A stretch of 64,000 nt of DNA from the NCBI RefSeq assembly GCF_003751085.1, contig NZ_RJJY01000001.1, forward strand, positions 5,704,001 through 5,768,000, read 5' to 3'. A program made the position numbers and the translations under genes. This document shows, one piece after another, positions 8,692 through 23,828 of the stretch (position 1 is the stretch's first letter; each line of letters opens with the position of its first letter). The stretch is from Micromonospora sp. Llam0 (lineage in GTDB: Bacteria > Actinomycetota > Actinomycetes > Mycobacteriales > Micromonosporaceae). The notes beneath the pieces are model-generated. The model made no database searches and was not told the origin of the DNA. It saw only the letters and a program-made list of their open reading frames with translations.

Positions 8692-9171
8692 TCAGGTCAG
8701 TAGTCGCTGGTAGACCGCGCGATCCTTGCCCGGTCCTTTGAACGCGGTGATCACGTCGATGTCGTTGACCCGCCGGTCGCCGGGCATGTTGGTGAATCCC
8801 ATCGACAGCCAGGCCGAGTGCGCGGTGGTGTTGTCCGGCTCGGAGGTGAGGTACAGGCGCCGGCATCCCCAGCCGGCGGCGCGGTCGGCCACCACGGTAA
8901 GCAACGCGCGGGCGATTCCACGGCCCCGGGCGTCGGGGTGGGTCATGACGTCCTGCACGTAGACATCGTCGGGCTGGTCCTGGCCGCGCAGAGCGATCAC
9001 CGCACCGCGTACCCGGCCATCCGCGTCCACGGCCAGCGGGCACGTGCTTGAGAACAGGTTCGCGTAGAGCCAGTAGTCGGACAGGTCCCGCGCTCGGATG
9101 TAGGGGGCGCCCAGGGCCATCAGCTCGCGGACCGCCGCAAGGTGGTCGACTGTCAGCGCGGTGATGATCAT
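8692..9171 (-). CDS. GNAT family N-acetyltransferase
   Basis: A 159-residue GNAT-fold enzyme. The acetyl-CoA pyrophosphate-binding motif is visible as VMTHPDARGRGIARALL (Q/RxxGxG/A type), followed by the typical YLTSEPDNTTAHSAWLSMGF strand-helix with the C-terminal 'N..A...W...GF' pattern. The acceptor substrate is unknown. The ATG lies within the stop of the upstream phosphotransferase gene (ATGA overlap), so the two are translated together and may act on the same compound. Confidence 0.85.
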   Translation of the reverse strand: MIITALTVDHLAAVRELMALGAPYIRARDLSDYWLYANLFSSTCPLAVDADGRVRGAVIALRGQDQPDDVYVQDVMTHPDARGRGIARALLTVVADRAAGWGCRRLYLTSEPDNTTAHSAWLSMGFTNMPGDRRVNDIDVITAFKGPGKDRAVYQRLLT

Positions 9172-10061
9172 CGCGGTGCCTGACGGATCAGGTCGGCGGC
9201 ATGGCCTCGCAGGCGGGCCAGCGCGGTGAGGCGGTGTGTCTTCTGCGCGTTGTCGGGCAGCGGGGCATGGAGGCGGACCTCCCTGGCGATGAGCAGGGCC
9301 AGGTTGACCGCGAACCCGACGGTGAGGTCGTGGCCGTGGACCCGGCCGCTGATCGCCCGTGCGAGGGTCGGGCTGGCCGGTGCGCCGATGGTGTAGAGCA
9401 GGGCAAGGTCGTAGCCGGGAAGATATCGGCCGCAGTGTTCGAAGTCGATGATCGCGCAGCGGCCGTCGGCCAGCAGCAGGTTGGCCGGTAACGGGTCGCC
9501 GTGCGCGACCTGCCGGGTGTCGCCGCTGGCGTCCACGAGCTGGTGCAGCGCTGCCCTGCCGGCGTCGTCGAGCTGGCCGGCGGCGTGCTCGGCGTCGACG
9601 CGACCGTGGTAGTCGGCGATCGGCTCCGGCAGCGGCGGGTGCGGCAGCCACGCGGCCACCGCATCGAGCGTATCCAGCACGACCTCGACGGATCGGCCGT
9701 TCACATCGCCGGTCAGGTGTCGCTCGTCGGCCAGCCGGGCGCCCGGCACGCGCGTGAGGACGGTGAGCCGCACATCGGCGTACCGCAGCCGGGGCGTGAC
9801 CACCGGGGGTGGGTCTGCGGCGATGCGCCGGTAGACACCAAGTTCATGCTCGCGGCGGCCGATCCAGTACGGATCGTCGGTGGTGAGCAGCTTGACCACC
9901 ACCGGCTCACCGTCGCGGGACCCGGCGGCCACGATCGCCTTGTCCGTGTGATGCAGCAGCCCTTCGACCATGATCCCGACCCGGGCAGCGTGCTGGCGCA
10001 GCGCCGACCAAGCGTCAGGGTCGGTTGGCGCGAACATGGTCTGGGATGCGGAGAAGGACAT
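9168..10061 (-). CDS. APH-family phosphotransferase (aminoglycoside/small-molecule kinase-like)
   Basis: A 297-residue protein-kinase-like fold enzyme. The N-lobe has VVVKLLTTDD (the ATP-anchoring Lys), the catalytic loop is AHGDPLPANLLLADGR with the HGD Asp, and the Mg-binding motif is AIIDFEHCGR. The family phosphorylates aminoglycosides, macrolides, choline or other hydroxylated metabolites; the substrate cannot be read from sequence. I chose the ATG at 10061; a TTG lies one codon upstream. Coupling to the GNAT gene suggests a two-enzyme modification or resistance module. Confidence 0.82.
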   Translation of the reverse strand: MSFSASQTMFAPTDPDAWSALRQHAARVGIMVEGLLHHTDKAIVAAGSRDGEPVVVKLLTTDDPYWIGRREHELGVYRRIAADPPPVVTPRLRYADVRLTVLTRVPGARLADERHLTGDVNGRSVEVVLDTLDAVAAWLPHPPLPEPIADYHGRVDAEHAAGQLDDAGRAALHQLVDASGDTRQVAHGDPLPANLLLADGRCAIIDFEHCGRYLPGYDLALLYTIGAPASPTLARAISGRVHGHDLTVGFAVNLALLIAREVRLHAPLPDNAQKTHRLTALARLRGHAADLIRQAPR

Positions 10062-10646
10062 CAAGTCATCCTGCCCGCCGACGGCGTCACGGCCAACGGC
10101 GGCGCGCCAGCCCGAACTGGCGACGGCGCACCTTCGTCACCAGTTGTCGCGCAGGCCAATGACCGTGCCGGGAGAAGAAGAGTGACATCGGACAGCGGTC
10201 TTCTTGGCGGGAGGCTCACCAGCAGGCGGGCCGAGACCTCGGATTCCTCGCTGCCGGGCGGCACCGCCACGGCGCCCCGGCGCGCATGACCGCCGCGCCG
10301 AGTACGACGCACGGTCAATTGCCATCTGCCGAGGGCACGGACGAACGGAGCAGAGGACACCAATGATCTGCCTCTCGGTCCTGCCTTCGCAGCCCGGTCG
10401 TGCTTCGGGCCACGCACGGTGCTATTCCGGCGCCTGGGGCTTGAGCAACGCTGCCGTGCTGACCGGTGCGACGGTGGTTGTCGGGGTACAAGCTCGTCTA
10501 CATAGGCGCGTACGGCTAGGTGTGCAGAGCTTTGTCGTACCCGATGCATGGACAAATGATCAACAAGTTGGAGGCCCCAGCCGAGGTGCCTGCAGACCTT
10601 GCAGAGGCAGCCGGGACCGGCGTGCTTCTGGCAGCGGGCCGTGAGC
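10062..10646. other. Intergenic region, nothing recognised
   Basis: About 580 bp upstream of the phosphotransferase gene. Both strands contain open frames of up to 195 codons, but their products are Arg/Pro/Ser-rich with no family signature or RBS, as expected for chance frames in high-GC DNA. The promoter of the phosphotransferase/GNAT pair should lie near 10065-10150. Confidence 0.5.
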
Positions 10647-11019
10647 ATGGAGGAGCTTCGGCGCGTAGCCGCAGCCAGGCGCTGTCATCGGTAGCAAGCC
10701 GACCCGCTGGAGCTCATCCGTCGGATCGCGACGCTGGTCGACGGGGTGGAGTCGGTGGCATGCGCGACGACGATAGCCACAGGCCGGTTGCACGTCGGTG
10801 ACTGGACCTGGACGATCCACCTGTGCGCGTGGATCGGCATCGGCGCGCCTCGCAAGGCCGATACGAGGCTGCTCGGGCAACACCTGGCACGGCTACACCT
10901 GGCAGTATCCCCAGTTGCTGTTATCCGAGGCCAGGCGCAGGACCAGCCGGCGGATCGACCGGATCGTTCGTGGCCGTCCGGCCTGGTGGGGCCTACGCCG
11001 CGCGTACGCCAGGGATGTT
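10647..11019 (+). pseudogene. Decayed hypothetical gene (in-frame stop plus frameshift)
   Basis: From an ATG at 10647 a frame runs into a TAG at 10692-10694. It then continues in the same frame with protein-like sequence (DPLELIRRIATLVDGVES, GRLHVGDWTWTIHLCAWIG, LLGQHLARLHLAV). Around 10909 the coding character moves to the next frame (SEARRRTSRRIDRIVRGRP, then AWWGLRRAYARDV). The joined product would be a basic protein of about 120 residues of unknown function. The scar ends where the truncated exonuclease gene on the other strand stops. The reconstruction is mine and has not been checked against a homologue. Confidence 0.35.
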
Positions 11020-11580
11020 GTCGGAGGGGTCGCCGGTCAACGCTCGGAAGTCGGGCCACTGCGCTGGGGTCACCCTGTGGCGTGCAAGCACGTCCGTAGG
11101 GGTGATCCGGCGCCGGGCCGGATCGAGGATGGTAACGCTGGGCGCGGCGAGTTGCAGCAGGTCCCGGTCGCCGGTGTAGCAGGTGACCGTGCGGCCACTG
11201 TCGACCGCAGCGCGGGCGAGCGTGGCGAGCACGTCGTCACCTTCGTGGTCGTCGAGCTCGAGCCAGGCGATCCCGGCCACGTCGAGGCCGTCCTTGACCA
11301 TCGGCAGCGATCGGATCGCGCTGTGGTCGGCGTCGGCCCGGTCGGCTTTATAGCCAGCGTCTCGGGTTTGCCGGGTGGCGGCGGCGTTCTCCCCGTCGAA
11401 CACCACGACGATCTCATGATCGGGCGCCATTTCCAGGTGGGTTTTGCGCAGGATCGCGAGGAATCCGAACACGCCGGTCAAGTCGCGGTCGCCGTCGCGG
11501 GAACTGATGCGCCGTTGCGAGAATCCCCACCAGGAGCGGTAGAGCAAGTGGTGGCCATCGACGGTCAGCAACGGTGTCAC
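10993..11580 (-). CDS. 5'-3' exonuclease, Pol I N-domain-like, C-terminally truncated
   Basis: A 195-residue FEN/Pol I-type 5'-3' exonuclease. The PIN-like core carries the acidic metal ligands: LLTVDGHHLLYR, VVVFDGENAA, LDDHEGDDVLATLA and CYTGDRDLLQL. The helix-3-turn-helix DNA-binding motif begins at LTGDPSDNIPGV but the protein ends two residues later, whereas full members continue about 80-100 residues. The GTG at 11580 is preceded by GGAGGGGAA. The truncation point coincides with a decayed gene on the other strand, so a deletion or recombination probably removed the 3' end. Activity may be lost or altered. Confidence 0.72.
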   Translation of the reverse strand: MTPLLTVDGHHLLYRSWWGFSQRRISSRDGDRDLTGVFGFLAILRKTHLEMAPDHEIVVVFDGENAAATRQTRDAGYKADRADADHSAIRSLPMVKDGLDVAGIAWLELDDHEGDDVLATLARAAVDSGRTVTCYTGDRDLLQLAAPSVTILDPARRRITPTDVLARHRVTPAQWPDFRALTGDPSDNIPGVRAA

Positions 11581-11934
11581 AGGGTTCCCCTCCGGTGGGC
11601 GCGGCACATCATCGCCGGTGACCGGGGCGGATGGGTGCCCACCGTTCCTCTCTCGGGACGGGGACGGGTGTCGAGCCTACCGGGTTGGATCCGGTGTCGG
11701 GGTGAAGGCACGGGCGAGTGTCTCGGCGTATGCGGTGACGACGTCTCGCTCGCGCATGACCCTGTGGTAGGCGCCTGCACCTGTCAGGTGGAAGCGGCCC
11801 GGCTAGCCTCGCAGCGCGTGCTTCGAGCCTGTGAACCCCAAAACACGCGGGCGGCGGATCCTCGCTCGACGGTGGCGCGGGCGGTAGCGTCGCCACGGTC
11901 TCAGCTGGATGTCCGTTCTAGTGCTGGAGGTTCG
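11581..11934. other. Divergent intergenic region
   Basis: About 350 bp between the divergent exonuclease and Nudix genes, which should contain both promoters. I see no gene, no clear operator palindrome and no RNA gene. A good RBS (GGAGG) sits just before the Nudix ATG. Confidence 0.45.
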
Positions 11935-12531
11935 ATGGATCGCACCGATGGGCCACGGATAATCGTCGAGGATCTCGCGTCGCGGGTTGTGCCGCTCGAT
12001 CCGCGTGAGCGGCAGGATCAGGCTGACATTGTGGCTTGGGTGCGCTCCGGCGCGCCGCTGTTTCGGACTGTTCCTCCAACAACGCCGCCGCAGCATTTGG
12101 CCGTTTACTTCGCTCTTTTTGATGAGGCTAGACGGGCTTTAATGATGGTGGACCATGTGAAGGCAGGCTGCTGGCTGTTGCCCGGCGGCCACGTAGACGA
12201 CGGTGAGGATCCGCGGACAACGGTGGTACGTGAGGCGCGTGAGGAGCTCGGCATCGATGTCCGGTTCCACGGAGGGCTGGGTGATCAGCCCTTCTTCCTG
12301 TCGGTGACGCAGACTCGGGGACAGCACAGCCATACCGATGTGACCTTCTGGTTCGTGTTGCACGGTGACCGTGCGGAGGCGATGACGCCTGATCCTGGTG
12401 AGTTCCGAGGTACCGCCTGGTTCGACCTGGATGAGCCGGTTGACTGGTCCGCTGCTCATTTCGATCCGCACATGGCGCGGTTCGTGACGAAGCTGAGCGC
12501 GGCGCTGGTCACGAGCGCATCAGCGCGCTGA
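11935..12531 (+). CDS. Nudix hydrolase
   Basis: A 198-residue Nudix enzyme with a complete Nudix box: GGHVDDGEDPRT followed by TVVREAREELGID, which gives the Gx5Ex7REUxEExGU pattern. About 65 residues precede the fold. Family members hydrolyse nucleoside diphosphates linked to another moiety (NDP-sugars, dinucleotides, oxidised NTPs). The ATG at 11935 has GGAGG upstream. Its 3' end overlaps the convergent PfkB-like gene by 23 bp, so it borders the nine-gene minus-strand operon and could act on a nucleotide made or consumed there. Confidence 0.85.
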   Translation: MDRTDGPRIIVEDLASRVVPLDPRERQDQADIVAWVRSGAPLFRTVPPTTPPQHLAVYFALFDEARRALMMVDHVKAGCWLLPGGHVDDGEDPRTTVVREAREELGIDVRFHGGLGDQPFFLSVTQTRGQHSHTDVTFWFVLHGDRAEAMTPDPGEFRGTAWFDLDEPVDWSAAHFDPHMARFVTKLSAALVTSASAR

Positions 12532-13396
12532 TCTCGTCGTCGCGTGGCAAGGGTTCATCGAGGGATCGGGTGCACCAGAGGCTGCCGCTGGCGCATGCGT
12601 AGGCGAGGCTGCTGACGGGATCGTCGCCGCGGGCGCGGCTGTGGATCAAAGCTGCGGAGAACGCCGCTCCCGCGCCTTGTACCTGGCGGACCGTTACCGC
12701 GATGGCTGGTGCTACCACGACGCCTGTGGTGAGGCTTGCTGCAACCGCTCCTCGGCGGCCGGCGGTGACCACGGTGAGGTCTGCGATCTGCAGGGCTTGC
12801 AGGATGGCGAGTTGTCGGTGTGCGGCGGATTCGTCGTTCTCGTCGGCGTTGGTCTGCAGCACGGCTGCTTTGTGGCCGGCGAGTGTGTTGCTGAGCCAGG
12901 GCGGTGGGGGTGAGCCGCCGAGGTTGAGGACGAGTTCCGAGCCTTGATCAAGGGCTGCTGCGATGGTGTTTCGCGGCGCGTGGCCGAGGACTTCGTAGCA
13001 GTCGATGTAGGTGATGGCGGTGGGGCCGAGGGCGGCGCCGTCCAAGGCGGCGGTGATGTTGCGCAGTCCGGAGAACCATGTGCGGTTGCCCGCTGCGTCG
13101 CAGGCGACGATGTTGACCGGCGTACGATCTGGAACCAGCTGTCCTGTCGTGCGTTGGACTCGCCATCGGCGAAGTCGCGTGTTCAGTTGCGCCCCCAGCG
13201 CGTCGTCGGCCACCTGATTGGTGGCGAGGGTGACGTCGTGGCCGAGCGCGGCGAGCAGACCGGCGACGAGCGGGCCGTCGCCTGCGATGAACTGGTCGGT
13301 GTTGAGGACCTCGACGCCGTAGTTGATGGTCGGGTATTTCTCGACGTGCAGCGTGTGGACGCCGGCAAGGTAGCTGAAGCAACCGATGGTCGCCAA
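12509..13396 (-). CDS. PfkB/ribokinase-like protein lacking the catalytic Asp
   Basis: A 295-residue ribokinase-fold protein. The N-terminal strand (ATIGCFSYL), a substrate lid region and the C-terminal ATP/anion-hole region (TVVTAGRRGAVA, then RQVQGAGAAFSAAL) are recognisable. Active kinases carry GAGD, with Asp as the catalytic base; here the sequence is GAGA, with Ala at about residue 244, so normal kinase activity is doubtful. The TTG start at 13396 has AAGGAG upstream and no better start in frame. It is the last gene of the nine-gene minus-strand operon and may be a binding or regulatory protein, or a kinase with altered chemistry. Confidence 0.75.
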   Translation of the reverse strand: MATIGCFSYLAGVHTLHVEKYPTINYGVEVLNTDQFIAGDGPLVAGLLAALGHDVTLATNQVADDALGAQLNTRLRRWRVQRTTGQLVPDRTPVNIVACDAAGNRTWFSGLRNITAALDGAALGPTAITYIDCYEVLGHAPRNTIAAALDQGSELVLNLGGSPPPPWLSNTLAGHKAAVLQTNADENDESAAHRQLAILQALQIADLTVVTAGRRGAVAASLTTGVVVAPAIAVTVRQVQGAGAAFSAALIHSRARGDDPVSSLAYACASGSLWCTRSLDEPLPRDDEISALMRS

Positions 13397-13482
13397 CGGG
13401 CGCCACTCCTTCTGGCTGGGTATGGCTTTTCGGATATCCAGGTGCCCCGGCCCAGCGTGATCTGGTGGGCGGTCGCGAGTTG

Positions 13483-14295
13483 CTAGCCGGTGAGGCCGGC
13501 GACCAGTTGCAGGGCTGAGTGATCGGTGAGTTCCTGCAGACGCGGAGCGTGGTCGTAGACGCACGAGGACAAAGCGCTGCTGTCGGCTAGGAGGGCATGG
13601 TCGAGGCGTTGGGACCCGAATCGCGGGCTGATCCAGCTGTGATCTGTGCCGTCGGGGTGACAGTTGCGGTAGGCGTCCTGTAGTCCGAGGTTGAGCAGGC
13701 CTCGATAGAAGGCGTAGTCGTGGTCTTCGAAGTTGGGCAGGTGTGGCCGGTGCCCGGGTTCGACGACGTTGAGATCCCCGGTGACGCACAGTCTCGGGTG
13801 GAAGATGTCCGCGAGGTACGCGGTGAACTGTTGTTGGAAGGCGCGGCGACGCTGGCTGCTGTCCGGGGTCATCCCGTTGGTCGGTGCGTATACGCCGACG
13901 AGCCGGATGGTTCCGCCGGCCGAGGAGAGGTCTACCGCAGTGATCCGTGGATCGAATCCGGGTGGCTCGACGGCGTCGAGGCGGAAGCCTTTGGCCGCGA
14001 CGATTGTGTGGAAACGCTGGTCGCGCCAGCCAGGTGCGGTCTGCAGGAGGTAGCCGTGGGCGTCGAGAGTGGTGCGGATCAGGTCGCACGCCGGTCCGGC
14101 TTGGACCTCGGTGAGCACGATCGCGTTGCAGCCTGTGGCTGCGAGCCAGTCGGCGAGGCGCTGGGCGCGGCCGGGACTGGGCCTGTTGATGTTGATGGTG
14201 CATAGGCGCAGCTCAGTGTCGGCGACACGGTCGTCGACGGCGGGTTGGTCGCCGAACCCGGCGAAGAGCAGTCCCTGCATGACGTCGTCGCTCAT
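13483..14295 (-). CDS. Endonuclease/exonuclease/phosphatase (EEP) family hydrolase, copy 1
   Basis: A 270-residue EEP-fold (ExoIII/DNase I-like) metal hydrolase. Conserved elements are LRLCTININ (the first Asn), AIVLTEVQAG (metal-binding Glu), VGVYAPTNG, CVTGDLNVVEPGHRPH (catalytic Asp/Asn), DHSWIS and the C-terminal ELTDHSAL (catalytic Asp-His). The family includes AP endonucleases, nucleotide phosphatases and phosphodiesterases. The GHRPH/FY insert is shared with a second copy in the same operon. The ATG overlaps the upstream cupin stop (TGATG). There is no signal peptide, so it acts in the cytoplasm. A nucleotide-intermediate hydrolase is my inference. Confidence 0.83.
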   Translation of the reverse strand: MSDDVMQGLLFAGFGDQPAVDDRVADTELRLCTININRPSPGRAQRLADWLAATGCNAIVLTEVQAGPACDLIRTTLDAHGYLLQTAPGWRDQRFHTIVAAKGFRLDAVEPPGFDPRITAVDLSSAGGTIRLVGVYAPTNGMTPDSSQRRRAFQQQFTAYLADIFHPRLCVTGDLNVVEPGHRPHLPNFEDHDYAFYRGLLNLGLQDAYRNCHPDGTDHSWISPRFGSQRLDHALLADSSALSSCVYDHAPRLQELTDHSALQLVAGLTG

Positions 14296-14984
14296 CAGTC
14301 CTCCGTAGCCGTGGTGGTCGCGGTGGCAAGCTCTCGTACCCGGGCGATCGTCTGATCGAGCTGGTCCGAGTTCATGATCTTGCTGGCGCGGGTGGCCGGC
14401 GTCTCCTGGGCGGCGCCGTATACCCAGAACGATCCTGCCGTCTTGTCAAGGATGAGGAAACGTTCTTTGGCGGCTGGCCCGCGCAGCAGGATGGAGATGC
14501 TGTCGGCTTCGGCTTGCACGGTGTGGACGCTGGTGTGGTGCAGGGCGTAGGTCGAGCCGGGGCGTTCGACGCGTTCCATGATGGGTGTCAGCGTGTCGGG
14601 GTCGGTGTCTTCGGTGAAGTGGTCGTCGCGGCCGTAGAGGCGATGCAGGTAGCTGCCGCGAAGGATGCGGCTGGCAAAGGGCCACCGGTGGTTGTGGGGC
14701 CGGTCGAAGTAGCCAGTCCTGTACAGGTGCAGCCGAAGGCGGATCTGGTGGTCGGGGCTGTCGTAGAGGACGAGTTTGTCCATGAAGTCGTAGTCCTCGC
14801 ACATCGTCCTCAGGTGTGTGTCGGTGGCGAGGTTGTCCAGCAGGGCCGTGAGTAGGCCGGGTTCGTGCGTGATCGCGTCGAAGATGCTTCCTGCGGTGTG
14901 CAGGATGGAGCCGGTGTTGTTCCAGTCGACGGTGTCCAGGGCTTGGAAGGTGGGGTGCGGGGTAGCGACGGCGGACATGGTCAC
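14295..14984 (-). CDS. Cupin-like protein (possible metal-dependent oxygenase or isomerase)
   Basis: A 229-residue protein with a double-stranded beta-helix pattern. RLRLHLYRTGYFDRPHNHRW supplies an HxH-type metal site, IMERVERPGSTYALHHTSVH supplies further His, and the fold closes with SISILLRGP. Cysteine-dioxygenase-like and sugar-modifying cupins share this arrangement, but I do not recognise a subfamily. The GTG at 14984 overlaps the stop of the upstream formyltransferase gene by 4 bp. The substrate is unknown and is presumably an intermediate of this operon. Confidence 0.65.
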   Translation of the reverse strand: MTMSAVATPHPTFQALDTVDWNNTGSILHTAGSIFDAITHEPGLLTALLDNLATDTHLRTMCEDYDFMDKLVLYDSPDHQIRLRLHLYRTGYFDRPHNHRWPFASRILRGSYLHRLYGRDDHFTEDTDPDTLTPIMERVERPGSTYALHHTSVHTVQAEADSISILLRGPAAKERFLILDKTAGSFWVYGAAQETPATRASKIMNSDQLDQTIARVRELATATTTATED

Positions 14985-16312
14985 TTCCTTCCGGCGGGGT
15001 TGCCCTTGCGGGTGTCGAGGACGCGCTTGAGGTGCGGGTGGAGGCGGTAGTACTGGCGGCCGGGGCCTTGGGGGGACCCTTCCGGAAGCCGTCCGGTGGC
15101 GGCGGCGTGCAGGGTCACGGCGAGTAGCAGGTCCAGTTGGGTTGCTTTGACGCGGCGGCGCAGGCTGGCGGGTGGCTCGTACGGAACAGGCGCGGTGGCG
15201 AGGATGTCGCCCTGGTCGACGGCGGGCGCGGCTAGGTGCAGGGTGCAGATGATGGGGTCGTTGTTCAGCACGGCCCAGCCGACGGCGTCCATCCCGCGGT
15301 ACTGAGGAAGGGCGCCGTTGTGCGCGTTGATGACGCCGAGGCGGGCCTGGCGCAATACAGGGGTGGGCACGATCGGCATGCCGATCAACACGAGGAGGTC
15401 GGTGCGGTGAGAGCGGATGATGCCGGTGACGTCATCCCAGGTTCGCGCGGTGTGATGCCTCAAGTCGGATCGCCGCACACCAGGACGGCCGGGAGGGCCG
15501 GAGGCTGCCGGCTCGGGCGGGTACCAGGCGCTGGCGTAGGCCGAGCTGGCTGGGATTGCGTTGCTGGGAGCGTCATACCAGCAGACGGCGTCGACCGGTG
15601 ACGGATGCGGCAGGTCGGAGAGGAACTGCTGTGCGCCGGCGGATCCGGCGCCGGCGAGGACCACGATGGATGGTGCCTCACCCGGCAGCGTCGGCGGTGT
15701 CTGCCAGAACGGGGCGGTGGTTGCCGTGGCCGTAGGCGGCGGGTGGTGGTTGAGCCGGCCTGTGAGGTGGTGCGTGGCGTCGCTGAGCAGGCGCGCGGTG
15801 TGGGCGAGTGACCGTGCCAGCGACGGCCATCCATCGCCGGCTGCGGTGTGCCAACGGGTCCAGACCGCGCCGATGAGTTTGCAGGCGGCGTTGAGTAATC
15901 GCAGGTCGGCGGAGGTGTGTGACAACAGAATCCACCGGTCGGCGACCGCGAGCCATACGCATGCCCGGGGTGCGCTCAGGCCGTCCAGGTTGTGCGCCAC
16001 CGGTGGGTGCCAGAGTCCGCAGACCTCGAAGGCGTGCAGCAGCGCCAAGTCCGATGCACTCGGCTCCCCGATGGTGGCCGTCGTGCTCGCCGGTCCTTCC
16101 CAGTCGAGCAGGCGGCCGTCATCGATGGGCCGGTCGAGCTGCCATACCTGCTGCTCGTACGCCGCGACGTCGAACCCACGATGCTGGCTTCTCGGTATCG
16201 GACCGGGATCGGCGCGGATGCGGGCGAGGTCGGCGAGGGTGAAGTCGGCGTCGAGGTCCTGTTGTACGGGGAATCGGTGTGGCCGCATCGCGGCTGCAGG
16301 GAAGGCCGTCAT
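14981..16312 (-). CDS. Formyltransferase-domain protein with a long unassigned N-terminal region
   Basis: A 443-residue protein. Residues from about 215 onward form a formyl_transferase fold (Fmt/PurN/ArnA type), with SIVVLAGAGSAGAQQFLSDL at its start and GVINAHNGALPQYRG at 326-340. N329, H331 and D366 (in VDQGDIL) match the catalytic Asn-His-Asp triad that uses 10-formyl-tetrahydrofolate. The first about 210 residues are helical and unassigned. Following a DegT aminotransferase gene by 4 bp suggests N-formylation of an amine it makes, as for N-formylated amino sugars. The acceptor is inferred, not shown. Confidence 0.8.
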   Translation of the reverse strand: MTAFPAAAMRPHRFPVQQDLDADFTLADLARIRADPGPIPRSQHRGFDVAAYEQQVWQLDRPIDDGRLLDWEGPASTTATIGEPSASDLALLHAFEVCGLWHPPVAHNLDGLSAPRACVWLAVADRWILLSHTSADLRLLNAACKLIGAVWTRWHTAAGDGWPSLARSLAHTARLLSDATHHLTGRLNHHPPPTATATTAPFWQTPPTLPGEAPSIVVLAGAGSAGAQQFLSDLPHPSPVDAVCWYDAPSNAIPASSAYASAWYPPEPAASGPPGRPGVRRSDLRHHTARTWDDVTGIIRSHRTDLLVLIGMPIVPTPVLRQARLGVINAHNGALPQYRGMDAVGWAVLNNDPIICTLHLAAPAVDQGDILATAPVPYEPPASLRRRVKATQLDLLLAVTLHAAATGRLPEGSPQGPGRQYYRLHPHLKRVLDTRKGNPAGRK

Positions 16313-16316
16313 GATG

Positions 16317-17549
16317 TCATGCCGCGACGGCGGCGCTGACCTTGGTCAGCGCGGCGAGGTAGCCGTCGACGAGCTCGTCGTCGTCGGGGTGTCCCCAGAT
16401 AGGGATCTTGACGAAGGTGTCCTGGAAACGCCGCACGCCGGGCAGGTTCCTGGGACTCACCGTGACATTCCGATACGGGGCGTGGGGATCGGGCCGGGCG
16501 AACAGAGGTTCGGCGCTGATGTCGCGGGTGGAGCCCGGCACGTCGACCTCGGTCGCTCCTTCTGCGAGACAGAGCTTGACGAACTCGTTGCGGGTCACCG
16601 TGGCGTTGTCCGGACGGAACCGCAGGCCGATCACGTACAGGCCGTGCCGACCGAGCCGGTCGGGCACGACTGCGGTGGTGATGACCGGGTTGTTGGCGAG
16701 GCTGGCGGTGACGCGGCCGAGGATCTGCCGGCGGCGCTGTTCGATCTGGCTTGCCCGTTGGAGTTGATGGACGCCGATGGCGGCGGCGAGTGGATGCATG
16801 CGGTGCTTGAGGCCCATGCCGGTGTATGCGAACGGGTAGTAGTCAGCACCTGGGTCGATCTCAACTTGGCAGCGTTTGTTGTAGTGGCCGAACAACAGGG
16901 CGAGTTCGCGGTACCGGTTGTCGTTCATGGTGAGAATGCCGCCCTCACCGGTGGTGATCGCCTTCTGGTTGGTCGAGTACACCGCCATATCCGCGAGGCT
17001 GCCGACATGTTGCCCGGCCCAGGACGCGAAGTGGGCGTGGGAACAGTCCTCCAGCAGTAGCAGATCACGCGCCCGGCAGAACGCGGCGATGGCGGTCATG
17101 TCGCACGGGTTGCCCCACATGTGCGTGACGATGACCGCGCGGACGTTCGGTTGCAGCTGCGCGGCGAGAGTGTCGGCGGTGACATTGCCGTATTCGTCGG
17201 CGTCGGCGAACAGCACCTCGACGCCTTCGAACGCGAACGGTGTGGCGGTCGCGGGGAAGGTGTACGCGGGTGCGATGACGGCGTCGCCGGGGCGCAGCCC
17301 GGCGATGCGGCTCATGGCGTGGATGGCGGCGGTGCCGCTGGCGAACGACACCACGTGCGGTGCGCCGACGAACGCGGCGAACGCCTGCTCGAATTCGCCG
17401 AGCACCCCGGAGGCGTCGCGGTCCGACAGTGAGCGCCGGGTCTGCGCGAGGATGGCCTGCTCGAAGTCGGCGTCGATGGTGGGCCACTGGTAGTGCGGCC
17501 CGGGCACGTCGATCGTGGGCGGTCCGCCGTGGGCGGCGAGGATGGACAC
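16317..17549 (-). CDS. DegT/DnrJ/EryC1/StrS-family PLP aminotransferase
   Basis: A 410-residue fold-type I aminotransferase. SFASGTAAIHAMS (about 68-80) binds the PLP phosphate, LLLEDCSHAHFASW holds Asp168, which pairs with the pyridine nitrogen, and VYSTNQKAITTGEGG places the PLP lysine at about K196. The EDCSHAH context resembles AHBA-synthase and inosose-aminotransferase relatives more than perosamine synthases. The reaction would convert a keto group on a sugar, cyclitol or similar ring to an amine with Glu or Gln as donor. The GTG at 17549 has a strong AGGAGGT RBS. The formyltransferase gene follows 4 bp downstream. Confidence 0.88.
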   Translation of the reverse strand: MSILAAHGGPPTIDVPGPHYQWPTIDADFEQAILAQTRRSLSDRDASGVLGEFEQAFAAFVGAPHVVSFASGTAAIHAMSRIAGLRPGDAVIAPAYTFPATATPFAFEGVEVLFADADEYGNVTADTLAAQLQPNVRAVIVTHMWGNPCDMTAIAAFCRARDLLLLEDCSHAHFASWAGQHVGSLADMAVYSTNQKAITTGEGGILTMNDNRYRELALLFGHYNKRCQVEIDPGADYYPFAYTGMGLKHRMHPLAAAIGVHQLQRASQIEQRRRQILGRVTASLANNPVITTAVVPDRLGRHGLYVIGLRFRPDNATVTRNEFVKLCLAEGATEVDVPGSTRDISAEPLFARPDPHAPYRNVTVSPRNLPGVRRFQDTFVKIPIWGHPDDDELVDGYLAALTKVSAAVAA

Positions 17550-17568
17550 GGTTACCTCCTGCGAAGGG

Positions 17569-18282
17569 TCAGGACCGGCTCGTGGCCGGTCGGCGGGCGG
17601 CGGCGAGGACCGGGGTGAGGGCGGTGACGCTGTCGTCGACACTGGCGCCGGGGTCGAGCGCGACGGTGTGCCAGTCGTGGCGGGCGGCGTAGAGGCGTAG
17701 GTTGTCGAGGCCCTGCTGCTGATAGTCGATGAACGTGTCGCGGCTGAGTTCGGCGTAGCCGGCGTGCATGCCGAGCTCGGCAGGTCGGAAGCGGGCCTGC
17801 CGCCGGTCGTAGAGTGCGCCGATGTCGGCGGTCAGCAGCACCACTGCGTCCGGCATGCGGACCCGGCGGAAGATCGCCTGCAGGTCGGTGTCGGGGTAGC
17901 CCTGCAACAGCAGCTTGGAAAGGAACTTGTAGGTCCAGCCGTCGACGATCACGTCGTAGCCGGCCGCCAGCAGCGGCTGTACAACGGTGCTGGCGTGGGC
18001 GGTGAACCAGGCTGCCTGTACGCCGATCCAGAACGCGTCGGGCAGGTCGAGGGCGTCCCCGCTGTGCCAGAGCACGCTCGACAACTGCTCCATGATGCCG
18101 GCGGCGTAGCTGGAGGTCGCTGAGATCTGCCGACGGCTGACGAACACCAGCCCGTGCCCGCCTGCATCGGCGTCGTTGAGGCGGGCAACGGCGGTGGGGT
18201 AGTCGAGCTCGCCGAGTCGTTCGGCGAGGGTCGACTTGCCGACGCCGTCCGGGCCCTCCAGCGCGATGAACGTTCCCTGCAT
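17569..18282 (-). CDS. Thymidylate-kinase-like P-loop kinase
   Basis: A 237-residue P-loop protein. FIALEGPDGVGKSTLAERLG is the TMP-kinase-type Walker A (about residues 5-24), VIVDGWTYKFLSKLLL corresponds to the DR(Y/W) segment but lacks the usual Arg after Asp, and the lid region contains RRQARFRP. The family phosphorylates dTMP, and relatives act on modified nucleotides or sugars. It is only 19 bp from the next gene in the operon. A divergent substrate is likely because a housekeeping tmk would not normally sit here; that is inference from context. Confidence 0.78.
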   Translation of the reverse strand: MQGTFIALEGPDGVGKSTLAERLGELDYPTAVARLNDADAGGHGLVFVSRRQISATSSYAAGIMEQLSSVLWHSGDALDLPDAFWIGVQAAWFTAHASTVVQPLLAAGYDVIVDGWTYKFLSKLLLQGYPDTDLQAIFRRVRMPDAVVLLTADIGALYDRRQARFRPAELGMHAGYAELSRDTFIDYQQQGLDNLRLYAARHDWHTVALDPGASVDDSVTALTPVLAAARRPATSRS

Positions 18283-18317
18283 CCGTGCCTCCACGTTCCG
18301 GTCGTCGTTGTCCAGGT

Positions 18318-20453
18318 TCAGGTGCTGCACGCTTCGGCGGCGTTGATGAGCCGCCAGCCCTCGGTGTGCTGCCAGCGGTCCAGCTCGTGCCGCAGGACTG
18401 CGGCGGAGTCGCTCGTCAAATGCGGCAGCAGCGCCTCGACCGTGCCAGCCATTCGGCTGTCCAGTGCGGTGACCTGCGCGTCCATGACTGCGCGGAGCTG
18501 GTGTTCGAACTGGTCGGGGCTGTCGCCGGGGCCGGTGGCGTCGATGAGGCCGAGCATGGCGGTCAGCAGGGTGAAGGCGGCGTCCTTCAGGACGACGCGG
18601 GCGCTCCTTATGTGGTGGCGTGGTGCGCCGTCGAGGATCTTTTCGAGGCTCTTGAGGGTGTAGTCGAGCGCGAAGTGCCGGTCGATCCATAACTGGGCGT
18701 TGCGGGAGCAGACCCCGATGCGCCAGTCGGCGAACCGGGCGTCGATACGGCCGAGCGCGGGCCGCGCCGCGCCGGCCAGGCCGGCCGCCTGCACCCTGCG
18801 GGTGTAGGCGGCGCCGGTCAGGCACTCCATCGACACCAGCATGTAGGAGATCGCGGTGTAGAACGGCCGCCCGGTACTGTGCTCGGCGACGAACGCATCG
18901 TCGCGGACCCCATCGACGATATCGGCGACGCTCATCTGCGGCAACGGCCGCAGCAGCAGGTCGGTGCGCGCCTGGAACCGATGCGTCGCGGCGAGCTCAC
19001 CGGTGTCCATCAACTGGTCGAAGGTGATGTACGTGAATCGGGTCGGCACCCCGAGCGCTGACAGCGTGCGGATGGCCAGGGCGTTCTGTCCGCCGGTGGT
19101 TTCCTTGTTGAACCGCTCCAGGATCGAGGTCACGCCCGACTCGACGCCGAACAGCATGCGGCGCAGGCCGTGGTCGATCAGGTGCCGCCACATACCGGCC
19201 CGTTCGATGTGCCACCCCCGGTCGTGGGCGGGATCGGCGACCTGGTCCACCCGGCAGGAGGATTCCCACCGAAACCCGGCCCCGTGGATCGTCTCGGCGA
19301 GCGTCTGGACGCGCGCGACGGCGTCCGGGCCGGCACCGACAGCTTCCTCGTCGACCAGATACAGCGTGCGGGAGATCCCGGGATGGCGGTCGAACACCTG
19401 ACCCATCTCCTTCAAGATCCAGTCAAGACGGTCCGGGCTGCCGCCCGCCCACGTTCCCTTGTGCCCGCGCGGGCAGAACGAGCAGAAGTTGGTACAGCCA
19501 CGAGATGCCTCCAGCTGGGCGACGCCACGGTGGTCCAGGGTCGCGTCAAGAAGGTCGAGCTCAGGAAGGAAGTCGGTCTGCACCCGGTTGGCGACTCCAG
19601 CAGTGCGTCGCCGGGCGATCACCATTCCACCGCCGCGGGGCCCGCGGTAGCCGATGCCGCGAATCTCCGGCAACTGCAGGTCGCCGTGGTAGTGGGCAAG
19701 TACGTCGGCGATCGTCGGTTCTCCGGCACCCCGGGCCACGATCAACTGCGGGTACCGCTCCAGCAGCAGTGCCTCGTTGCGGGCGGTCAGACTGCCACCG
19801 GCGATGACTAACGGCGGGGCGGGAAGGGCATTCAGGTAGTCGATGAGGTCGGTCATCAGATCGTGCTGGCCGAACGTCGCGGAGACGCCGACGATGTCGG
19901 GTCGCCAGGACTCGACGGTGGCCCGGACATCGGGCAGCGTGGCGCCGAGTTGCATGTCCATCAGACGGACTTGCCCCAGCAGGCTGGCACGGGCAGCGCG
20001 GGCCAGGTCGGAGATCGCCAGCGGGAACCGGGGCAAGGGAAACCACTCGGGGTGATACAGCGCCACCAGCAGCAGCCGCGGCCGAAGCAGCCGGGAGACG
20101 GCGTCGTCGGTCAAGGTGGCGGACGACAGCCACTGCTCCGGGCGGTGCACGGTGATGCGGTCGTCCGTCCACACCGGCCACCGCCGGGTGGCGTGCGGCT
20201 GCCCGGACAGATCCGCGACAGTCCAGTCGCCACCGGCGGGGTTCTCGGCGATCAGCAGGCGGCGTTCGAGAGTGCCGGTGACCGCGAACCGGCTCGGCAG
20301 CAGCGGTGTGAGCGCCGCAGTAACGGCGGTCAGGTCCGTCATCGGCAGGTGGGCCAGCCCGGTGACGACCTCGGCGGCCGGGTGCAGGGCGGTCGTGCGT
20401 GTGATCGCCTGCAGCAGCCTGCTGTGAGCGGTCATGGTGGTAGTGGCCAGCAT
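18318..20453 (-). CDS. B12-binding-domain radical SAM enzyme
   Basis: A 711-residue protein. The region at about 125-255 has a cobalamin-binding-like Rossmann pattern (PDIVGVSATFGQHD, PLVIAGGSLTARNE, VARGAGEPTIADVL). The radical SAM cluster motif is EASRGCTNFCSFCPRGHKG with C320, C324 and C327 (Cx3Cx2C). About 250 helical residues follow the TIM-barrel part. Such enzymes catalyse methylation at unactivated carbon, ring contraction or other radical rearrangements. I chose the ATG at 20453; a GTG three codons upstream lies too close to the RBS (GAGGAGG). It is probably the key committed enzyme of the operon; the substrate is unknown. Confidence 0.87.
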   Translation of the reverse strand: MLATTTMTAHSRLLQAITRTTALHPAAEVVTGLAHLPMTDLTAVTAALTPLLPSRFAVTGTLERRLLIAENPAGGDWTVADLSGQPHATRRWPVWTDDRITVHRPEQWLSSATLTDDAVSRLLRPRLLLVALYHPEWFPLPRFPLAISDLARAARASLLGQVRLMDMQLGATLPDVRATVESWRPDIVGVSATFGQHDLMTDLIDYLNALPAPPLVIAGGSLTARNEALLLERYPQLIVARGAGEPTIADVLAHYHGDLQLPEIRGIGYRGPRGGGMVIARRRTAGVANRVQTDFLPELDLLDATLDHRGVAQLEASRGCTNFCSFCPRGHKGTWAGGSPDRLDWILKEMGQVFDRHPGISRTLYLVDEEAVGAGPDAVARVQTLAETIHGAGFRWESSCRVDQVADPAHDRGWHIERAGMWRHLIDHGLRRMLFGVESGVTSILERFNKETTGGQNALAIRTLSALGVPTRFTYITFDQLMDTGELAATHRFQARTDLLLRPLPQMSVADIVDGVRDDAFVAEHSTGRPFYTAISYMLVSMECLTGAAYTRRVQAAGLAGAARPALGRIDARFADWRIGVCSRNAQLWIDRHFALDYTLKSLEKILDGAPRHHIRSARVVLKDAAFTLLTAMLGLIDATGPGDSPDQFEHQLRAVMDAQVTALDSRMAGTVEALLPHLTSDSAAVLRHELDRWQHTEGWRLINAAEACST

Positions 20454-20585
20454 GGCGGACACCTCCTCAGTGAAGCGCGGCAGCAGCCAAGAGTGGTGGC
20501 GAGGATGCTCTCCGTAGATGTGGCGGGGCGTGTGGGGGCACGGCGGGACCGCCGTGGCGGTGCCGTCGGATGTGGCGTGCGGGTA

Positions 20586-21419
20586 TCAGGCGGTCGGTGC
20601 CGCCCAGACGAGGTCGGCGGAGAGGGCGGAGTGGTCGGACAGGCCCGCGCTGCGCGTGTCGTGCACGTAGCGGCAGTCGGACACGGTCACGTGGTGACCG
20701 GTCGTGCAGAACAGATGGTCGAAGCGGTAACCGGCTCCGGAGCGTCCGAACCAGGAATGCTCAGTGCGCTGCGGGTGGTGAATACGGAAGATGTCGGTAA
20801 AGCCGCCAGCGGCGAAGCTGCGATAGAACTCGTACTCCCACCTGCCGAACACCGCATGGTGCGGCCGGTGCCCAGGCTCCACCACGTTGAGGTCACCGGC
20901 GATGATCACCGGGACGTCGGTCGGGAAGACAGCCGACAGGCTGGGCAGCAGCGCGGTGACCGCGTCCTGAAACGCCCGCTTGTCGACGTTTCGCCGTGCA
21001 CGGGGCCCGCGCGACGGGACGTACAGCCCCACCAGACCGAGTTGCCAGCCCGCCGGATGACTGACCATCGCCCCTGCGGCGCGGTGCGGCAGGTGAGCAG
21101 CGTCGAGGGACACCACCTGGAGATCTCCGACGCGGGTGGCGAGCAACACCCGGTAGTCGCGGCCCCCGGAATCGGGGAGATGCACGCGGTACCCGTGGGT
21201 GGCGAGCGACTGCGCCAGGCTGTCCCCGGACGCTGCGCCCGCCACCTCGCTCAGGACGACGACGTCCGCGTCGGGCCGCTCGGCGAGCCAGGCAGCCTGC
21301 CGCACGCCACGGGCGGAACTGGCGTGCTGAACGTTCCACGTGAGCACCCCCACCGCAGTTCGCTCCACACGTGGGGCGTTACGGCGTAGCTGCGACGGCA
21401 GGACCTCGGCGGCGATCAT
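20586..21419 (-). CDS. Endonuclease/exonuclease/phosphatase (EEP) family hydrolase, copy 2
   Basis: A 277-residue EEP-fold metal hydrolase and paralogue of the gene at 13483-14295. Shared elements are VLTWNVQHA, VVVLSEVAG, VGLYVPSRG, IAGDLNVVEPGHRPH, EYEFYRSF, GFTDIFRIHHP, EHSWFG and LSDHSALSADL, covering the expected Asn, Glu, Asp/Asn and terminal Asp-His catalytic residues. The ATG is within the stop of the aldo/keto reductase gene (ATGA). Two EEP paralogues in one operon suggest two hydrolytic steps, or subunits with different specificity. Confidence 0.83.
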   Translation of the reverse strand: MIAAEVLPSQLRRNAPRVERTAVGVLTWNVQHASSARGVRQAAWLAERPDADVVVLSEVAGAASGDSLAQSLATHGYRVHLPDSGGRDYRVLLATRVGDLQVVSLDAAHLPHRAAGAMVSHPAGWQLGLVGLYVPSRGPRARRNVDKRAFQDAVTALLPSLSAVFPTDVPVIIAGDLNVVEPGHRPHHAVFGRWEYEFYRSFAAGGFTDIFRIHHPQRTEHSWFGRSGAGYRFDHLFCTTGHHVTVSDCRYVHDTRSAGLSDHSALSADLVWAAPTA

Positions 21420-22528
21420 CGTGCCGTTTTCGTGGGTGCCAGCTCATCGACGAAGACCTCGCCGCCAGCGTCGAGCCTCGACTGCACTCGCGACATGATC
21501 TTTCTAGCGGCGGCGATCGTCGTGGCGTCGGGCGGTTCGCGTAGGCACCCGAAGTTCATGTCGGCCTGCTCGGAGCTGGTGAACCCCACCAGGACCGCGG
21601 CATGCGCGGACCGGCTCAGGCACGACCACAACGCGATCCGGATCAGATCGGCAGTCTGAGCGCCTGCCACCTCGCGTAGCTCATCGATTCCCGCGGCGAT
21701 GACCGCCGCCGCTTCCGGCCTGAACCAGCGTTTGCGGCTGCGGTGATCACCCCGTCCGAAGGCGCGCTCCCGGTCCGGCCGGTAGCTGCCCGTCAACAGG
21801 CCCTGGCCCAACGCCTTGTTGACCAGAACCCCGCAGCCATGGGAATCGGCGAGCGCGAATATGCCGGCCGACCGGTCGGCCGGCGTCAGCAGGTTGTCCC
21901 GCACCGCGAGTACCTCTGGGTTCACGACGTGGAACAACCCGCGAAAGCGCGCGATCTTGTCGCCACGCAGGTGCGGCTCTGTGGTGAGCCGGTCCAACGC
22001 GAAGCGGTGCGGACCGCGCATGCCGATCGCCCGCACCAGGCCCTCGGCCTGGAAGTCACGCATGGCCTGGACCGCGCCTTCCAGGTAACGATCGGCCGGC
22101 CCGAAGTCCTGATGATGAAGAAAGTAGATGTCCAGGAAGTCGACGCCCAGGTTCTGCATGCTCTGCTCCAACTGATGACGCATGTGGAGCGGATCGTAGG
22201 CGTGCGCCGCCGTCCCGGCGAAATATCCGACCTTCGACGTCAACACCACGTCCTCGCGGGGAACCTGTGCGACCAGGCCAGCTAGGCGCCGCTCAGAGCG
22301 GCCATGCCCGTAAACATCGGCCGTGTCGAACAATGTCACTCCCCGCTGGAAGGCCCGCTCCAAAGCGGCGAGGGCGCTGGCGTCATCGATCTCGGACCAG
22401 CCCATCGGCATACCCAGGTTCTCGTCCGGGCCACCCAGAGGCCAGCACCCCGCACCCAATGCGGACACCTTGATGCCTGTGCGCCCCAGCGTGCGCTGCG
22501 GCAACGACTCGACCAGCATCCCGCTCAT
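21416..22528 (-). CDS. Aldo/keto reductase
   Basis: A 370-residue AKR TIM barrel. RTLGRTGIKVSALGAGCWPL opens the fold, LFDTADVYGHGRSE supplies the catalytic Asp and Tyr, VVLTSKVGY the Lys, and IYFLHHQD the His. These enzymes interconvert carbonyls and alcohols with NADP(H). It is the promoter-proximal gene of the nine-gene operon and overlaps the next gene by 4 bp. Here it could supply, or remove, the keto group used by the DegT aminotransferase. I chose the ATG at 22528 (MSGMLVES); upstream in-frame residues lack an RBS. Confidence 0.87.
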   Translation of the reverse strand: MSGMLVESLPQRTLGRTGIKVSALGAGCWPLGGPDENLGMPMGWSEIDDASALAALERAFQRGVTLFDTADVYGHGRSERRLAGLVAQVPREDVVLTSKVGYFAGTAAHAYDPLHMRHQLEQSMQNLGVDFLDIYFLHHQDFGPADRYLEGAVQAMRDFQAEGLVRAIGMRGPHRFALDRLTTEPHLRGDKIARFRGLFHVVNPEVLAVRDNLLTPADRSAGIFALADSHGCGVLVNKALGQGLLTGSYRPDRERAFGRGDHRSRKRWFRPEAAAVIAAGIDELREVAGAQTADLIRIALWSCLSRSAHAAVLVGFTSSEQADMNFGCLREPPDATTIAAARKIMSRVQSRLDAGGEVFVDELAPTKTAR

Positions 22529-22766
22529 CGTGGCCCCCGGCGGCTGTAGCGACCACGGGCGCCGCGCGGCGATGACCACCTCACATCAGTTACGAACATC
22601 CTCGCCTCCACTTCCGCCGAACGCCCGAGATCCACTAGCCGGGTAATGCCGCGTGCTGCTAATGACATGGGAAACGACCGGGCCACTGTCCGGCAAGCCC
22701 ATCGGACGTTCCCGACACGGCCCACGGCGACAACCCTGCTCCGGACCGTCACGGTGGCCCGGCGAC

Positions 22767-23828
22767 GTGCCCGCGCCCGGTACACTTCCGGACATCGCCG
22801 GACGCCCCCAGCTCCCCAAGACGGACATCAATCCGACCACCGCTGGTTCGATCCCCGAACTCGCCGCCTGCCTGAGCAGACTTCGCGCCCAGGCAGAGAT
22901 CTCCTATCGCGGCCTTGAACAATGGGGCAGCCGCCACGGCACCCCCATGCCGCGCAGCACGATGGCCGACGTATTCGCCGGCCGCCGCCTGCCGCGCAAA
23001 CAGGTCCTCCTCACCTACCTACGAGCCTGCGGCATCGACCCGCGAACCGACCCGCGATGGCTCGCCGCGTGGACCCGGCTCGCGGAACAACGAACCGCAC
23101 CCCGCCCGGCAAGCGAACCGATCGGGCAGCAGGCGGCGACACAGGAGTCCGCACAGCGCATCCTCGACGAAGCACTCGCGATCCGCGCCGCCGCCGAACG
23201 AGACGCCGCAGAACTGCGGGCCGCAGCCAGAGAGGACATCGCCTGGCTGCGCGCCAAGGCCGACGTCGAGCCGGACCATCGGCGTGACCTCGACGCCAAA
23301 CTGGCGGCCGACATAGCGGGTGCCGGACTACTGCGAGTCGGAACCAACTACCTCAACGAGCTGGAATGGGAGCAACTCTTCGCCGGAGTCCGCCAACTCG
23401 ACATTTTCGTGGCCTACGGACAGACCTGGCGAAACCTCCACGCCCGCCACCTTCACGACCTCGCCGCCCGCCCCGGCAGCAAGATCCGCGTGTTCCTGCC
23501 CGATCCCGCCGACGATACGACCATCGCCACGCTTGCCGACCGGTTCGCCATCACCGTCGAGGAGATGCGAAGGCGGATCGAGGCCACGCGCGCCGACTAC
23601 GAACTCCTACGCCGCCCAGACGGGGCCGATGTCGAGATCCTTTATCGACCCGGCGATCGGCTGTACTCCTTCTACCGACTCGACGACACCGCCGTCCTCG
23701 GGTTGTACAGCCACAGCCGCAACCGAATGCCCTCCATCCCGGTCCTCGTCTGTCGCGCTCCCGGAAGTCTCTATCAGTTTATAATGGACGACCTATGCAA
23801 CATCGAACAGCAAAGCCGGCGGGTCTAG
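22767..23828 (+). CDS. Putative regulator/effector with HTH-like N-terminus and DUF5919-like domain
   Basis: Up to 353 residues. The N-terminal about 90 residues are HTH-like (SIPELAACLSRLRAQAEISY, then STMADVFAGRRLPRKQVLL). A helical Ala/Arg-rich stalk of about 50 residues follows (AIRAAAERDAAELRAAARED). The C-terminal globular domain contains NELEWEQLFAGVRQLDIFVA, GSKIRVFLPDPADDTTI and EILYRPGDRLYSFYRLDD, which I associate with DUF5919 with moderate confidence. The start is uncertain: GTG 22767 is used, but a possible -10 (TACACT) lies just after it. It is divergent from the nine-gene operon and is the best candidate for its regulator. Confidence 0.6.
   Translation: MPAPGTLPDIAGRPQLPKTDINPTTAGSIPELAACLSRLRAQAEISYRGLEQWGSRHGTPMPRSTMADVFAGRRLPRKQVLLTYLRACGIDPRTDPRWLAAWTRLAEQRTAPRPASEPIGQQAATQESAQRILDEALAIRAAAERDAAELRAAAREDIAWLRAKADVEPDHRRDLDAKLAADIAGAGLLRVGTNYLNELEWEQLFAGVRQLDIFVAYGQTWRNLHARHLHDLAARPGSKIRVFLPDPADDTTIATLADRFAITVEEMRRRIEATRADYELLRRPDGADVEILYRPGDRLYSFYRLDDTAVLGLYSHSRNRMPSIPVLVCRAPGSLYQFIMDDLCNIEQQSRRV

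Follow-up and report, generated by a model that had tools for sequence, protein, structure and literature searches.

A nine-gene Micromonospora operon around an OxsB/AlsB-family radical SAM enzyme, probably a pathway of the oxetanocin/albucidin kind

The 64,000-nucleotide stretch of Micromonospora sp. Llam0 analysed here (the window) carries nine packed genes on the minus strand, one of which encodes a cobalamin-dependent radical S-adenosylmethionine (SAM) enzyme of the OxsB/AlsB family (rSAM; 18318..20462, 714 residues). We read this operon as encoding, with a probability of roughly two in three, the biosynthesis of a small molecule along the lines of oxetanocin and albucidin. In transcription order, the genes encode an aldo/keto reductase (AKR), an exonuclease III/phosphatase-fold phosphohydrolase (EEP1), rSAM, a thymidylate-kinase-like P-loop nucleotide kinase (TMK-like), a DegT-type aminotransferase dependent on pyridoxal phosphate, a formyltransferase (FMT), a cupin, a second phosphohydrolase of the same fold as EEP1 (EEP2) and a PfkB/ribokinase-fold protein (PfkB-like). 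As the initial annotation had described, they are tightly packed, with successive gaps of −4, 123, 35, 19, 4, −4, −1 and 86 bases. Each open reading frame, checked one by one, has valid start and stop codons, and a purine-rich stretch is visible by eye upstream of six of the nine starts. The likely starts of AKR (22519 or 22528), TMK-like (18282), DegT (17549) and PfkB-like (13396) were revised. NCBIfam and fold searches agree with the gene labels. The Pfam matches to Aldo_ket_red, Exo_endo_phos, B12-binding, DegT_DnrJ_EryC1, Formyl_trans_N and PfkB lie above the cut-offs, and those to Radical_SAM, thymidylate kinase and the second Exo_endo_phos (EEP2) lie below.

An OxsB/AlsB-family enzyme at the core of the operon

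By sequence and predicted fold, rSAM belongs to the OxsB/AlsB family. It shares 44.6% identity with AlsB, and is nearer to OxsB and to AlsB than these two are to one another. The cysteines of the cluster motif (C323, C327 and C330) are invariant in 22 aligned rows and stand at the same position as in AlsB and OxsB. The B12-binding domain PF02310 scores 32.3 bits (cut-off 32.1) and Radical_SAM 22.9 bits (cut-off 29.5). Sequence profile comparison aligns residues 54-709 of rSAM to residues 48-741 of OxsB, and the structural model aligns to 5ul4 over residues 10-705, with MetH-type B12 domains matching at about residues 123-260. By contrast, TokK and TsrM align only from about residues 124-127; the N-terminal domain of the four-domain OxsB is absent in both, according to PMC13331322. 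This four-domain layout, including the N-terminal domain, is present in rSAM in both the profile and the model. Of the solved structures, OxsB is by far the nearest relative, followed in the fold comparison by the dehydratase AprD4. The residue beneath the cobalt is threonine in all 54 family rows and in AlsB, compared to Asn186 in OxsB; since the asparagine is not common even to OxsB and AlsB, it is uninformative for membership.

The initial annotation had left the role of the radical SAM enzyme between C-methylation and a rearrangement. Rearrangement is supported, whereas C-methylation is rejected as a first reading, because OxsB is by far the nearest solved relative and the alignments of the methylases TokK, TsrM and CysS leave out the N-terminal domain. 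The modified-nucleotide scaffold proposed earlier is supported as well. The view that the operon matches no known pathway is not, given the kinship of the key enzyme to OxsB and AlsB.

Partner enzymes and distribution of the operon

A search of 5.8 billion proteins recovered at least 659 rSAM relatives among 8000 scored candidates, and the relatives among the 120 matches listed are all at least 59% identical. With rSAM alone as the query and one genome per species, 68 loci were retrieved, of which 66 are actinobacterial judging by their titles. Partner counts were made on the 49 loci that have a family rSAM and enough flanking sequence (19 were left out for short flanks or a weak or partial rSAM). 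In 46 of the 49 loci, an AKR gene lies no more than 4 kb from that for rSAM, the exceptions being L017, L069 and L072. Phosphohydrolases, with an EEP, CYTH or Nudix fold, are present in 43/49 loci at 4 kb and in 47/49 at 6 kb, all but L017 and L072; the distance was widened because the EEP gene lies behind four tailoring genes in window-like loci. At 6 kb, EEP occurs in 31 loci, CYTH in 13 and Nudix in nine, and EEP and CYTH never occur jointly, with CYTH and Nudix counted by clustering of predicted genes, so that divergent copies may have been missed.

The AKR of the window (21416..22528, or from 22519; PF00248, E 6e-36) looks like a dedicated enzyme of the rSAM system, since the AKRs adjoining rSAM in other loci are 39-86% identical to it, compared to 30% (73.8 bits; 36% over a short piece) for the best other AKR of its own genome. 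All 53 partner AKRs keep the catalytic D, Y, K and H, which we take to be the active-site tetrad of the AKR family. EEP1 (20586..21419) matches PF03372 at E 9e-8 and TIGR00633 at E 3e-14, the latter below cut-off. At E 1e-10, its sole other match in the genome is EEP2 (13483..14295; PF03372 below cut-off, TIGR00195 E 1e-5), to which it aligns with 31% identity.

This partner set distinguishes the window from both known systems. In the oxetanocin A pathway (OxsB and OxsA of Bacillus megaterium), the role of OxsA is phosphate removal, and aldehyde reduction is left to a nonspecific dehydrogenase. The window resembles this pathway in its full-length, four-domain OxsB homologue, in the accompanying phosphohydrolase and in an expected aldehyde reduction, which its own AKR would perform. 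It differs in the threonine in place of Asn186, in having six or more additional genes, and in carrying EEP, CYTH or Nudix enzymes in its family instead of the HD-domain OxsA; no HD domain was found in any of the nine operon proteins, in the regulator or in those flanking proteins that were scanned. In the albucidin pathway (AlsB and AlsA of Streptomyces albus subsp. chlorinus), AlsB has the same threonine as rSAM, and a TMK-like kinase related to that of the window lies about 5 kb upstream. However, AlsA homologues occur in only five of 91 loci compared: L062, L063 and L091, beside AlsB-type enzymes, and L075 and L076, beside distant relatives. None is found in the window-branch loci, which have the AKR and phosphohydrolase instead, and AlsA has a single 30% match in the genome of the window, about 3 Mb away. 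The window operon thus belongs to neither gene cluster, having no OxsA and no AlsA. We read OxsA, AlsA, and AKR plus phosphohydrolase as three alternative partner sets that deal with the same kind of strained product. A literature search of open-access papers, which is not proof of absence, found no description of the AKR-associated branch or of the nine-gene block.

The tailoring genes are inherited together. Nine of the 68 loci, hereafter window-like, have TMK-DegT-FMT-cupin-EEP2 in identical order after rSAM, eight directly and L052 with an AKR gene between. Two plasmids carry the same series, L089 directly after rSAM and L090 after three other genes. This conservation exceeds chance and supports one co-inherited operon, and the synteny found in other genomes is in keeping with the earlier operon claim. 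The system is sporadic: rSAM occurs in four of 296 class-level genomes including that of the window, and the cupin in four, three of which are rSAM carriers. The cupin gene adjoins rSAM in the window and in G130 and is far from it in G146, and the rSAM loci of G146 and G332 have AKR and EEP1 alongside. Among 61 near relatives, seven genomes, the window's own included, have any rSAM match: four have only weak matches (27-30%), and two have partial family-like copies, G007 with 59% identity over residues 11-385 and G002 with 48% over residues 595-714. These rSAM gene fragments lie at L003 461-1860 and L002 1501-2628, and in G002 the last 120 residues still adjoin an AKR. The cassette therefore seems, judged from sequence, to have been gained and lost among near relatives.

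Proposed pathway and alternative readings

The sequence and fold comparisons establish the gene set and its conservation, the family of rSAM, its preference for certain partners and the kinase-DegT fusion, whereas all of the chemistry in the following scheme is what we infer from the genes and their relatives. The TMK-like kinase (17569..18282; weak dTMP kinase matches) would set the nucleotide phosphorylation state. rSAM would contract the deoxyribose ring as OxsB and AlsB do, and the strained product would open to an oxetane aldehyde, as expected from family membership. The dedicated AKR would reduce this aldehyde, and EEP1 would take off phosphate in an OxsA-like role. In the window sub-branch, DegT and FMT would add an N-formylamino group, perhaps at the carbon of that aldehyde. 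Phosphorylated intermediates may be modified, trimmed or sensed, at some point in the pathway, by the cupin, EEP2, the PfkB-fold protein and the Nudix hydrolase.

Among the tailoring enzymes, DegT (16317..17549; PF01041, E 2e-61) has the lysine of its NQK motif invariant in nine rows, and scores 812 bits, whereas the best of the genome's 11 other family matches scores 140. FMT (14981..16312) matches PF00551 at E 2e-10 (residues 291-380, profile 67-158), keeps N329, H331 and D366 invariant in ten rows, and has a long extra N-terminal part of roughly 210 residues, as estimated from the profile offset. DegT adjoins FMT in all nine window-like loci, which agrees with the amination and subsequent formylation suggested before. 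The TMK-like kinase is fused to DegT in L012, L089 and L090, and a related kinase directly follows AlsB-AlsA in Herbaspirillum. The cupin (14295..14984) has no Pfam match, nor any sequence match in the PDB up to E 1, and was identified by fold only. The predicted structure shows a cupin fold of the cysteine-dioxygenase type and a three-histidine site, in which H97, H99 and H154 are the likely metal ligands; in both features the protein resembles thiol dioxygenases of that type. PfkB-like (12509..13396; PF00294, E 7e-16), present in four of the nine window-like loci, reads GAGA or, in L019, GAGS where GAGD is usual, as seen in all four rows reaching the motif, with a fifth row ending earlier. 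This is presumably the position of the usual catalytic aspartate of ribokinase-type kinases, and because it is replaced, the protein may bind without phosphorylating. The domain labels of the initial annotation are thus supported by Pfam, NCBIfam and fold, except that PfkB-like lacks this residue, and two working nucleotide-type kinases are not borne out.

Several points weigh against the proposed pathway. Reaction types can shift among homologous radical SAM enzymes, and the family has threonine at the position of Asn186 of OxsB, though AlsB does too. Both AKR and DegT are present and either could take the aldehyde; capture by DegT we consider doubtful. The cysteine-dioxygenase-like cupin is also encoded next to an unrelated radical SAM enzyme, at three sites in two genomes and at two of these sites together with a PfkB-fold protein, so that the cupin part does not necessarily work on an oxetane. 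L052, despite its window-like gene set, falls outside the group of the other nine rows in a quick tree supported only by the Shimodaira-Hasegawa-like approximate likelihood ratio test (70 rows, without L075, L076 and rSAM rows shorter than 500 residues or not clustered; OxsB, L063 and L060 on long branches). According to PMC13331322, OxsB has no substrate-bound structure, so substrate residues are not comparable. Finally, albucidin was produced from a construct with albA-C only, according to PMC7074753, in which AlsB and AlsA are named albB and albA; since these genes suffice and the kinase is not needed, the kinase linkage is weak evidence.

The best-surviving alternative, a serious one though short of even odds, is compatible with the core of the proposed pathway: TMK-DegT-FMT-cupin-EEP2 may build a separate block, such as an N-formylamino sugar or nucleotide, joined later to the product of rSAM, AKR and EEP1. 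Most relatives have the rSAM-AKR-phosphohydrolase core without these genes, the cupin is also found with no rSAM nearby, and DegT/formyltransferase pairs elsewhere act on sugar nucleotides, as do the PDB kin perosamine synthase and ArnA. Such pairs (perosamine synthase and ArnB/ArnA types) and the window enzymes share the DegT family and the active-site residues of formyltransferases; the window enzymes differ in the long unrelated N-terminal part of FMT and in the kinase-DegT fusion of three relatives; no sugar-nucleotide dehydratase or epimerase was found among the proteins scanned beside the operon. Against a separate block, the five genes directly follow rSAM in all window-like loci but L052, and clustering saw no ligase or glycosyltransferase conserved with them.

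Alternatively, the rSAM branch could have moved away from ring contraction to a different chemistry (epimerisation, dehydration, methylation or C-C bond formation) with a nucleotide or nucleotide sugar as substrate, giving a modified nucleoside other than an oxetane. We think this unlikely, if still worth weighing. The branch has its own partners and no AlsA, the window has no HD-domain protein among those scanned, cobalamin-dependent radical SAM enzymes are chemically diverse, and the second-best fold is a dehydratase. However, an aldehyde-forming ring contraction would need precisely an AKR, and rSAM lies nearer to each characterised enzyme than those two do mutually, with one reaction common to OxsB and AlsB according to PMC13331322. 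An anti-phage defence through chain-terminating nucleotides, as in prokaryotic viperins, would fit a sporadic, partly plasmid-borne rSAM and a nucleotide kinase; it is improbable, as PADLOC gave only two short P-loop matches of the kinase, the phosphohydrolases point to a released nucleoside and the tailoring genes look biosynthetic. DNA hypermodification, raised earlier as a less likely alternative, would fit a nucleotide-type kinase and exonuclease-III-fold proteins. It is rejected as very improbable, as the kin of rSAM work on free nucleotides, and a search of 50,697 phage records gave no rSAM match, nor did viral contigs yield one with the patterns applied.

Just two oxetane nucleosides are known from nature, one antiviral, antitumor and antibacterial and the other herbicidal, according to PMC13331322. 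The present comparison assigns dozens of actinobacterial loci, as yet uncharacterised, to the family of OxsB and AlsB and names their partners, with three unrelated folds taking the place of the phosphohydrolase. These loci make it testable how partner enzymes steer the strained OxsB/AlsB product to different end products, and the extra genes of the window suggest a new, aminated member of a very small natural nucleoside class. As a tentative proposal, which we would sooner doubt than back, the actinobacterial OxsB-family enzyme with its aldehyde reductase and interchangeable phosphohydrolase may define a third class of oxetane nucleosides in nature, seemingly more widespread than the other two, with an N-formylaminomethyl, further oxidised nucleoside as the window product. 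We know of no description of such a chemotype.

Flanking genes and related loci

The Nudix hydrolase gene (11950..12531, plus strand; PF00293, E 1e-20) is convergent with the operon and occurs in seven of the nine window-like loci, so that this flanking gene, noted earlier, belongs to the cluster. A divergent helix-turn-helix regulator (22653..23828, plus strand, start possibly 22767; PF13560, HTH_31, below cut-off) is present in six; begun at 22767, it has no Pfam match. Promoter alignment of three loci shows conserved stretches, partly within the possible regulator start, and no operator was named. The flanking exporter and family 1 glycosyltransferase (GT1) noted earlier are rejected as parts of the system, since the nine window-like loci hold a single major facilitator superfamily (MFS) match (28%, L014) and none to GT1. 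Beyond the Nudix gene lie a free-standing DNA polymerase I-type 5'-3' exonuclease domain (10993-11607) and an APH-type phosphotransferase (9168-10064). A porphobilinogen deaminase (HemC) gene lies at 29458-30342, about 7 kb past the AKR end of the operon; HemC has two further matches in the genome, one 94% identical over residues 70-295 and perhaps a recent duplication.

Related loci show further arrangements. In 23 of the 49 loci, again counted by clustering, a protein of about 200 residues is encoded mostly on the opposite strand adjoining rSAM (e.g. L057 12033-12653); it has no Pfam match in the one copy scanned and looks, by eye, like a small nucleotidyltransferase. In several Streptomyces (L036, L037, L042, L045, L053 and L088), the rSAM-AKR-EEP core is part of an extended conserved cluster that also has GNAT, a protein with a weak S-adenosylhomocysteine-hydrolase match, a methyltransferase, a phosphoribosyltransferase and HAD, to which some add a 489-residue Nudix-type protein. 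The loci that pair the cupin with another type of radical SAM enzyme (some 380 residues, CEHCYMG motif) are L083 8647-10451, L084 7264-10940 and L085 7858-11459; L084 and L085 also carry a P-loop kinase-like and a PfkB-fold protein, GAGD reading CAGA in L084, and their sequences suggest a second system having the window-type cupin and PfkB genes. Albucidin-type AlsB-AlsA pairs occur in Proteobacteria (L063 8702-15133; L091 8755-16415): the Herbaspirillum pair stands with a nucleotidyltransferase-like protein, a TMK-like kinase and an MFS-like exporter (first and last by eye), and that on an Agrobacterium pusense plasmid with Nudix, GalE and MFS genes. Finally, L075 6786-9988 and L076 5605-8741, from a Planctomycetota metagenome-assembled genome and Actinomadura violacea, have a distant OxsB-like rSAM (about 28-30% identity) with asparagine under the cobalt like OxsB, adjoining an AlsA homologue of about 30%, and possibly represent a fourth lineage.

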